Positions 6,932-9,678 of a DNA stretch of 64,000 nt are shown one piece after another; position 1 is the first letter of the stretch, and every line of letters begins with the position of its first letter. The notes beneath the pieces are model-generated. The model did no database searches. It was not told the DNA's origin and worked only from the letters and a program-made list of their open reading frames with translations. The position numbers were made by a program, and so were the translations under genes. This stretch comes from an uncultured Akkermansia sp. (GTDB lineage: Bacteria > Verrucomicrobiota > Verrucomicrobiia > Verrucomicrobiales > Akkermansiaceae). The stretch is from NCBI GenBank assembly GCA_947626545.1, contig CANQSS010000002.1, forward strand, positions 1-64,000, read 5' to 3'.

Positions 6932-7106
6932 ACGTATTTAGAATACGTATTAACGCATGCATAAATCTTTGATGATGTAAATCTTGCAAAAACACAAACA
7001 ATCATATTTTTCGCCTTTATGGTAAGAGAGACCTCTCAATAAAGCATTGAATATGAAAGATAAAAATTTTTCAAATAGAGACTTGACATACGTATTCTAA
7101 AAACGC
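6932..7106. promoter_or_regulatory. Candidate invertible promoter segment A (inverted sites 6932-6948 and 7090-7106), upstream of the autotransporter
   Basis: ACGTATTTAGAATACGT at 6932-6948 and inverted partner ACGTATTCTAAAAACGC at 7090-7106. CTTGACAT (-35) sits inside the segment at 7082-7089. A minus-strand -10 TAGACT lies just outside the left site. Confidence 0.7.
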
Positions 7107-7130: not shown

Positions 7131-8139
7131 ATGAAGGAAGAAAGCAAGAACATAACTGAGGAAGAGCGAGCGCTCATTATCATGATGAGGTCTATCAAAG
7201 TACAAGCGCATGAAGTGATGCGCTTTGTGCAAGAGGGGCTGAAGCGAGGAGGCGGCAAATTGCGGCGAGCGGAACGCTGTCTGGAGCTGGGAGAGGAGGG
7301 AATGAAACGCAACCGGCAAACGGTGAGTTTTTGCACAGGCGGTAGAAGCAGCAGCGGAGGAGAAAAAGGAGAGACGGGCGCGCACGCAGAGTGGCTTTCG
7401 GCAAGCGATGAGACGACTGATGCGCGAGTGTCCGCAGGTGAAGTTACGACGTGTGCGCAGCATACGCAGCGAGGAATGCGCCGCATGGCTGGAGAGGGCA
7501 TATACCACACCAAGCCAACGCAAGAAGGCACGCGTGGCGCTCAGCAGTGTATTCAGCACAGCCAAACGTCGCGGTTGGTGCTCCGAAAACCCGATACGCA
7601 GCATCCCTGTGCCTCATATCCGAGAAAAGAGCATCAGCATCCTCAGCAAAGAGGAACTCACACGTTTAATGCACACCGCCGAGACATTCAATGGCGGCTC
7701 TTGTCTCGCTCCGCTGGCTATCATGCTCTACGCCGGAGTACGCCCCAACGAAGTGGAGCGGCTGTGCTGGGGCGACGTGCGGCTTGAAAACGGCAGGATT
7801 CTTATCGCACCGCGCCACAGCAAGACCGGAGGCGCGCGCCACGTTACCATCTTCCCACCATTAGCTCGCATCCTGCAGCGCATCCGCCGCCCTGATGCTG
7901 AACGAATCTGTCCGCCGAACTGGAGACGACTCCAAACCCTCCTGCACCACGAAGCCGGCCTCACCGCATGGCAACCGGATGTCCTGCGCCACACTTTCGC
8001 CACACACCACCTCGCCACCTTTCGCAACTACGCCGAGCTGCAGCTCGAAATGGGTCACCGCTCTGCCGAGCTGCTGCGCACTCGCTACATCGCGATGGAG
8101 GGCATGTACCACCATGAGAATTCCCTGCTTGTCAACTAA
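7131..8139 (+). CDS. Tyrosine recombinase/integrase with an apparent frameshift at a T5 run (7328-7332)
   Basis: Good SD (aggag) before ATG 7131. Frame 7131.. gives ...MKRNRQTVSF and frame 7408.. gives the catalytic domain. Removing one T joins them as RQTVSFAQAVEAAAEEKKERRARTQSGFRQAMRRLM.... Catalytic elements: GVRPNEV, HSKTGGARHV, DVLRHTFATH, EMGHRS, RTRYI. Confidence 0.85.
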
Positions 8140-8363: not shown

Positions 8364-8747
8364 ATGGGATTGACCACATGGAAGGATGCACCGGAGGGCA
8401 AAACCATCGAGAGCGATGTTGTCGTAGTGAAAAATTACCTGTCAGAGGAAGAAATGAGGCAGCTCAATCGCCCGGTGAATGCTTACTTGAATTATGCTAA
8501 GACGATGGCTCAACGTAAAATTCCCATGACGATGCAGGATTGGGAACAACGACTCAACGGATTCATCCGCTTGTTTGAATACGATGTGCTCGCCGATGCG
8601 GGCAAGGTAACAGCGGAGATCGCGCGTCTGCACGCCGAAAGCGAGTTCGAGAAATACCGGGTGATTCAGGATCGCGAGTACCTTTCGGACTACGACCGCT
8701 ACCTGTTGGAACTGGAGGGACGCTGCAAGAAAAAGGAGCAACCTTGA
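8364..8747 (+). pseudogene. RhuM-family protein, C-terminal fragment
   Basis: HMGLTTWKDAPEGKTIESDVVVVKNYLSEEEM...MTMQDWEQRLNGFIRLFEYDVLADAGKVTAEIARLHAESEFEKYRVIQDREYLSDYDRYLLELE resembles the RhuM C-terminus; the N-terminal portion is absent. Confidence 0.7.
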
Positions 8748-8815: not shown

Positions 8816-8988
8816 ACGTATTGGGAATACGTATGTCAAGCCATCAGTCAGAAAAAACAATCTTTTCTTTTCAGTGACTTGCAAAGTCAGGTCATTGCTT
8901 TCGGCAAAGAAAAGAGTGCAATTAGTGGTTGGCTTGTCGCTTCATTGCGAGTGAGATACGCTCGAAGCTGTGCGTATTCCCAATACGC
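8816..8988. promoter_or_regulatory. Candidate invertible promoter segment B (inverted sites 8816-8832 and 8972-8988), upstream of the OMP gene
   Basis: ACGTATTGGGAATACGT followed by ATGTCAAG (minus-strand CTTGACAT) at 8816-8840; GCGTATTCCCAATACGC followed directly by TATACT at 8972-8994. Confidence 0.7.
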
Positions 8989-9021
8989 TATACTTCCCTC
9001 GTCCAAGTGGACAACGATCCT

Positions 9022-9678
9022 ATGAAAAAGACAGCTATTACATTATTGGCGTGTGCTGCGCTCGGCGTCGCATACGGACAGGAAGAGCAGCAGAAGAGCG
9101 GATTCGGTCTCGAACTGAACGCCGCTTACAACTTCGCGCTGAAGGATATCTCGAAAGCTGAAGAAGGGGTGCCTGCTTTCAAGGTGGATACATATGGCGT
9201 GGATTTGACCGCCTTCTACGCCTTCAACGAACATCATGCCGTGAATATCCGCTTTGGCTATGCAACGGGCGATGATGAGCATACTTTGTATGATTCATAC
9301 AATGGAATCGTGATTTCGGATAATATAAAGGTGGAGGTACAGAATATCTACATTATGCCCGGATATCGCCTGAAGACTTCTTTGAACGACTCCTTGAGTT
9401 TCTTCGGTGGTGTCAATGTGGGTCTCGCTCAGACAAAAGGAAAAATTGAGGAAAGTTTTGTGGGAGAAAGCTACAGCGAGAGCAAGAGCAAATGGGGCTT
9501 CGCATGGAGCGCGGAAGTCGGATTGGCGCAGAAAATTGCCAATACTGGATCCGTGACCCTTTCCGTACAGCTTATGCAGATGCTGGGACGCCCTGATTTC
9601 GGGGATGAGTACGAAAGCGCTAAGGCAGAGAGCCAACTCAACCTCGGCGTGCGGCTGGGTTACAGCTGCCAGTTCTGA
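9022..9678 (+). CDS. Outer membrane beta-barrel protein (porin-like)
   Basis: Signal peptide MKKTAITLLACAALGVAYGQ, alternating amphipathic strands, terminal aromatic (YSCQF). The ORF track start at 8929 is an extension; ATG 9022 gives the signal peptide. Confidence 0.8.
   Translation: MKKTAITLLACAALGVAYGQEEQQKSGFGLELNAAYNFALKDISKAEEGVPAFKVDTYGVDLTAFYAFNEHHAVNIRFGYATGDDEHTLYDSYNGIVISDNIKVEVQNIYIMPGYRLKTSLNDSLSFFGGVNVGLAQTKGKIEESFVGESYSESKSKWGFAWSAEVGLAQKIANTGSVTLSVQLMQMLGRPDFGDEYESAKAESQLNLGVRLGYSCQF

Follow-up and report, generated by a model that had tools for sequence, protein, structure and literature searches.

Does the segment between two palindromic sites, c and d, upstream of an outer-membrane beta-barrel (OMP) gene of an uncultured Akkermansia sp. 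act as an invertible promoter? And if so, which enzyme would turn it? A sequence-only reading of the window (the whole stretch of 64,000 nucleotides analysed here) had proposed that c/d is one of two independent switches, placed on either side of a single recombinase that runs both. The invertible promoter for the OMP gene finds support in a flipped relative of the locus in genome G070 and in an exact inversion at a sister locus. We consider it very probable that c/d is an Akkermansia inverton: a split promoter, invertible by site-specific recombination, that would switch an 8-stranded barrel gene ON and OFF. The part assigned to the neighbouring recombinase fared less well.

Anatomy of the c/d locus

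The window was re-read around both sites. The sequences and coordinates of c and d stand as claimed, as do CTTGACAT on the minus strand directly after site c (8833-8840), the TATACT directly after site d, separated by 27 nt from ATG 9022, and the exact inversion of 15 bp (8817-8831 against 8973-8987). As in other invertons, an inverted pair of short repeats flanks an intergenic segment upstream of a gene. At one mismatch or less, CGTATTNNNAATACG occurs four times in the window, compared to 0.03 expected from dinucleotide shuffles of the window.

Table 1. Features of the c/d locus and the neighbouring recombinase cassette, in window positions.
Feature	Position	Strand	Remarks
Site a of the neighbouring a/b switch	6932..6948	+	core TAG
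Site b of the a/b switch	7090..7106	+	core CTA; ACGTATTCTAAAAACGC; upstream of the recombinase
Tyrosine recombinase gene (PF00589)	7131..8139	+	+1 T at 7328-7332, frameshifted
C-terminal fragment of a RhuM-family gene (PF13310)	8364..8747	+	conserved neighbour of c/d in relatives
Recombination site c	8816..8832	+	ACGTATT-GGG-AATACGT; would form part of the promoter spacer; recurs in 43 pairs
Invertible segment, 139 bp between the 17-bp sites	8833..8971	.	inner segment reverse-complemented in the G070 relative
-35 box TTGACA, mobile promoter half	8834..8839	-	points away from the OMP gene as assembled
Recombination site d	8972..8988	+	GCGTATT-CCC-AATACGC; would be the 17-18 bp spacer in the ON state
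-10 box TATACT, fixed promoter half, outside the invertible segment	8989..8994	+	TANNCT-type box target-side in most pairs
Target gene, 218-aa outer-membrane beta-barrel (PF13505)	9022..9678	+	OmpA/Ail/OmpX-like 8-stranded fold, as modelled

What would a flip do to the OMP gene? With -10 and -35 boxes assigned by E. coli-like consensus only, the gene at 9022 has no -35 in the assembled orientation, and the best current -35/-10 pair upstream of its ATG matches 7/12 consensus bases. Inversion of 8833-8971 in silico, with the borders taken from the sequence-only reading, creates the anticipated TTGACA-18-TATACT, a match of 11/12 that is reached by 6 of 127,920 window positions. The difference between 7/12 now and 11/12 after the flip agrees with the prediction that c/d is OFF as assembled. 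By this promoter score, orientation is predicted to control OMP transcription. We infer promoter activity and current switching in this Akkermansia sp. strain. Since tyrosine recombinases cut within the core, the actual crossover would fall inside the sites, and the inner arms would be carried along with the segment. Such a crossover would make TTGACATACGTATTCCCAATACGCTATACT and leave the 18-bp spacer as it is.

In the mechanism we favour, a tyrosine recombinase, most likely acting in trans from an intact relative of the broken neighbouring gene, would bind the palindromic arms and exchange strands within the core at the centre; with c and d in inverted orientation, the outcome would be a flip of the segment. 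In the assembled OFF state the -35 TTGACA would face left, away from the OMP gene. In the ON state it would adjoin site d, whose 17 bp would then, as the spacer, separate the mobile -35 from the fixed -10 TATACT. A core match would be needed for strand exchange, so that pairs whose cores differ, such as c/d with GGG and a/b with TAG, should switch independently under the same enzyme. From these sequences, independent switching of a/b and c/d is plausible.

The product of the target gene (9022-9678) matches PF13505 (OMP_b-brl) with E=5e-12. A model built from 12 relatives has eight strands at a mean pLDDT of 81 and matches OmpA, Ail, OmpX and OmpW. As modelled, the target is an 8-stranded OmpA/Ail/OmpX-like barrel, and its loops differ among relatives.

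Matched cores and inverted loci in relatives

Is this arrangement peculiar to one locus? Our comparison covered relatives that are Akkermansia MAGs, mostly from rabbit gut, and the strain's own genome, which was searched by pattern and by region. Exact site pairs at the c/d spacing occur in 13/76 genus genomes; a reversed-pattern control at the same spacing gave 0 matches in these 76 genomes. From regions fetched out of the 13 genomes we collected 43 pairs, with slight mismatch allowed and a TTGAC-like box required inside one end. The sequence-only reading had pointed to matched centre trinucleotides within c/d (GGG/CCC) and a/b (TAG/CTA). This feature extends to the whole set: the core trinucleotides are reverse complements of each other in 43/43 pairs, with 13 different trinucleotides represented, and shuffling of partners among the 43 leaves 6.4 matching cores on average and 16 at most. 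The core also varies among c/d orthologues (GGG, TGG, CGG, CAG), with both ends altered together and the match kept within each pair. Core matching fits the strand-exchange homology expected of tyrosine recombinases.

Read toward the target gene, nearly all 43 pairs share the layout CTTGACATA-CGTATTNNNAATACG-(N)TANNCT: CTTGACATA adjoins one site in nearly all of them, and a TANNCT-type box lies on the target side in most. The sites are spaced about 156 bp apart, with centre distances of 153-159 bp plus one of 602; given this spread we make no claim of helical phasing. The exceptional pair (L016 2742-3358, G000:C4) is core-matched and lies upstream of an intact recombinase copy; its 602-bp spacing perhaps reflects an insertion within the invertible segment. 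Look-alikes of ACGCATTnnnAATGCGG at 2-3 mismatches resemble terminator-type hairpins and were set aside.

Strict restriction of recombination within each pair, as had been suggested, is not general. One core can be common to several loci of one genome (TGC, for example, in 7/11 pairs of G068), so the core alone does not bar exchange between loci. Assembly breaks in G000, at contigs C47, C48 (start) and C119 (end) (L020, L021, L022), fall at sites with a CCA/TGG core or within about 70 bp of them, as would be expected if such a site is common to several loci or present in both orientations.

Does the segment turn around in nature? A flipped form of the c/d locus is present in one relative, G070, where the flanks are 87% identical to ours and the inner segment is 53% identical in the forward direction versus 79% as the reverse complement. 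Before the OMP gene of this relative stands TTGACA-18-TATACT. Since its right-hand site has decayed, this locus may be locked ON and is not a clean reversible example. A sister locus shows an exact inversion: G067:C64 and G071:C53, near-identical loci from two species, have flanks that are 88-100% identical and an inner segment that is 53% identical forward but 99% as the reverse complement, with breakpoints at the sites. Two OMP switches, G065:C95 (ON) and G066:C35 (OFF), likewise align at 61% forward and 85% reversed. Both orientations of the inverton are thus observed at the level of comparison between species. In assembled state, 31 of the 43 pairs are OFF, 3 ON and 9 ambiguous by a simple -10 score, and we counted this strong OFF bias among assemblies against the switch explanation.

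The gene behind the inverton at G071:C53 (L154) and G067:C64 (L139), which stands in opposite orientations in the two species, encodes a glycosyltransferase of family 25, and at both loci the adjacent recombinase homologue contains an in-frame TAG. In second tandem OMP genes the promoter, TTGACATGCGTATTCTGAGAGCTTTATACT, is fixed, with TTGACA present and the recombination site decayed; examples of such a locked-ON promoter derived from a decayed site are found at L120 3197, L121 6125, L122 2829 and L123 2602. Behind the switches stand OMP barrels and large surface proteins of the MKLHLP type, the latter with weak PATR matches; a GT25 glycosyltransferase, an HsdM methylase, a helicase and an SPFH protein each occur once as a target. 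The HsdM-type DNA methylase gene stands behind a CGTATT switch in L155 (G071:C87, 2594-4345), which makes phase-variable restriction-modification possible. In L137 (G066:C3, 3095-5500) the switch precedes an SNF2/helicase protein and has a TATACT/TATACA box on both flanks; both of its orientations might be ON for one side.

Which recombinase would turn the segment?

In the local recombinase gene, positions 7328-7332 read TTTTT, versus TTTT in four relatives, two of which come from the same genome, and the extra T leaves the reading frame frameshifted rather than intact. This T may represent a genuine frameshift, a variant produced by slippage or a mistake in the assembly. The gene matches PF00589 with E=1.7e-14, and the motifs LRHTF, GH and RYI are present; in the close relatives, however, Asp takes the place of the first His in HxxR (QPDVLRH). 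The strain's own genome holds an intact copy on contig C76, 100% identical over the C-terminal 243 aa, an intact copy on C4 with 98% identity, and four more at 71-73%, one of them with an internal stop codon. With a frameshifted local gene and this many relatives of it in the genome, the view that one recombinase runs both switches is not supported in the form proposed. That c/d lies across the recombinase from a/b also seems incidental: three relatives keep the switch and the OMP gene with no recombinase there, and the recombinase cassette occurs at other places. From these comparisons c/d would best be regarded as one of a genome-wide set of switches served in trans, rather than as the second half of a two-switch cassette; the identity of its recombinase is inferred.

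Recombinases of the cassette family are usually preceded by a core-matched site pair of their own. Such a pair also stands before four homologues from human-type species, at 42-45% identity. Homology between the recombinase cassettes begins at site b, whose outer arm, in the window (7090-7106) as in L016, L132, L068 and L093, always reads AAAAACG where AATACG would be expected, with CAGAGC, not a -10, coming after it. A phage origin of the window segment was considered and is unsupported, with no match in a search of a phage collection.

Could the enzyme come from elsewhere? A single genus-wide recombinase, unrelated to the a/b cassette, might drive all switches and leave the cassette recombinases to serve their own pairs only; one of the 37-43% homologues that lack a switch of their own would be a candidate. 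Genome G010 speaks for it, with 14 CGGATT pairs, a single homologue above E 1e-6 and no site pair beside that gene, as do G067, G068 and G071, which have CGTATT pairs and lack the CGTATT-type recombinase of 98-100% identity. Because of these three genomes, and because the arms beside recombinases of about 70% identity are mixed (CGGATT, CGAATT, CGTATT), we also dropped a rule of one enzyme for one arm. The arms of the cassette recombinases, however, are those of the c/d pair, and we regard the genus-wide enzyme as unlikely, at perhaps one chance in a few.

A second alternative holds that c/d was once a working switch and is now frozen OFF, its own recombinase broken and the paralogues not acting on it. 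The frameshift in the adjacent gene fits this, and locked forms are known in the family (G070, and the second OMP copies of tandems, which have TTGACA and a site that has decayed). In such locked copies, however, the sites have decayed, whereas c and d are intact with matching cores; the C76 copy (100% over 243 aa) and the C4 copy (98%) are intact too, and the extra T could be an assembly error or a slippage variant. A frozen c/d is improbable in our judgement. More improbable by far is a third alternative, in which the 17-bp palindromes are operators and a dimeric repressor attached at both ends holds the DNA in a loop and blocks the promoter without any inversion: near-perfect palindromes with a 3-bp centre, located between the -35 and -10 positions and about 156 bp apart, would suit it, yet it needs no match of non-palindromic cores within a pair (43/43 match), recombinase genes bear the same site pairs, and the exact inversion between sites by which orthologous and sister loci differ largely refutes it. 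Palindromes acting as terminators were considered alongside this operator reading, and the terminator-like ACGCATTnnnAATGCGG sequences were left out here too.

Relation to known invertons and significance

How does our preferred reading, an invertible split promoter served in trans, relate to the invertons already described in this genus? The repeat motif CGGATT..AATCCG of Akkermansia reportedly goes back to Jiang et al. 2019. The arms of c/d are CGTATT/AATACG and depart from that motif, and a pattern search of the strain's own genome yielded no perfect CGGATT pair. Among the CGGATT pairs fetched here the cores match in 20/20, and most have a TTGAC-like box beside one site. Hybrid CGGATT/AATACG sites link the two types. 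Like the A. muciniphila invertons, c/d belongs to the same genus and has inverted repeats of about 17 bp, some 155-185 bp apart in that comparison, a TTGAC-like box by one site, matched cores and a surface gene as its target (autotransporters being one example). Unlike them, its arms read CGTATT..AATACG instead of CGGATT..AATCCG, a change of one base per arm; CGTATT pairs are confined here to a clade of 13 genomes, and their main targets are OMP_b-brl and large MKLHLP-type surface proteins. By sequence, c/d is a member of the known Akkermansia invertons, as a CGTATT arm variant.

Three other systems frame the comparison. Mpi of Bacteroides fragilis belongs to the serine recombinases, and the segment it flips contains whole promoters; c/d has a tyrosine recombinase as its predicted enzyme and a promoter split across the site. 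The E. coli elements fimS and UpaE are single elements with the whole promoter inside: as proposed for c/d, a tyrosine recombinase inverts a promoter-bearing element and so switches a surface protein, but a regulon of core-coded pairs, as proposed for Akkermansia, is not known there. P35 (mpl) of Mycoplasma penetrans, which belongs to another phylum and has other targets, shares with the Akkermansia set the many short, independent inversions of promoters, one surface-protein gene each. Invertons with CGGATT..AATCCG repeats have published experimental support in Akkermansia (PMC13343947, PMC11892184), including 32 invertons in one group of A. muciniphila, some near autotransporters and with reads in both orientations (PMC11892184), and the cps1 inverton of capsule switching (PMC13343947). 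The literature also gives 38 mpl genes for M. penetrans (cited in PMC10502178), global switching of many surface loci by one enzyme for Mpi (Coyne et al. 2003, cited in PMC11892184) and a tyrosine-recombinase switch for UpaE (PMC6083910). The portions of the literature covered contain no description of a split promoter with the site as spacer, or of core matching; Jiang et al. 2019 and supplements lay outside that search.

Could the matched cores amount to a code? On a wider reading, to which we give slightly less than even chances, the invertons would form a core-coded regulon: the site is the -35/-10 spacer, the pair-locked 3-base core allows dozens of surface switches to be served by a few recombinases while the chromosome stays unscrambled, and bound recombinase also blocks the ON promoter. 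If true, the core would be free to differ between loci and locked within each pair, and a recombinase sitting on its site would couple switching to repression. Switch state, target side and partner site can be called from sequence alone through CTTGACATA-CGTATTNNNAATACG-(N)TANNCT, so that the catalogue of invertible promoters in this important gut genus becomes a code that can be read. Matched cores offer a direct test of how one enzyme family can drive many independent switches, and any recombinase gene equipped with a switch of its own is a concrete candidate for the enzyme behind the Akkermansia invertons.
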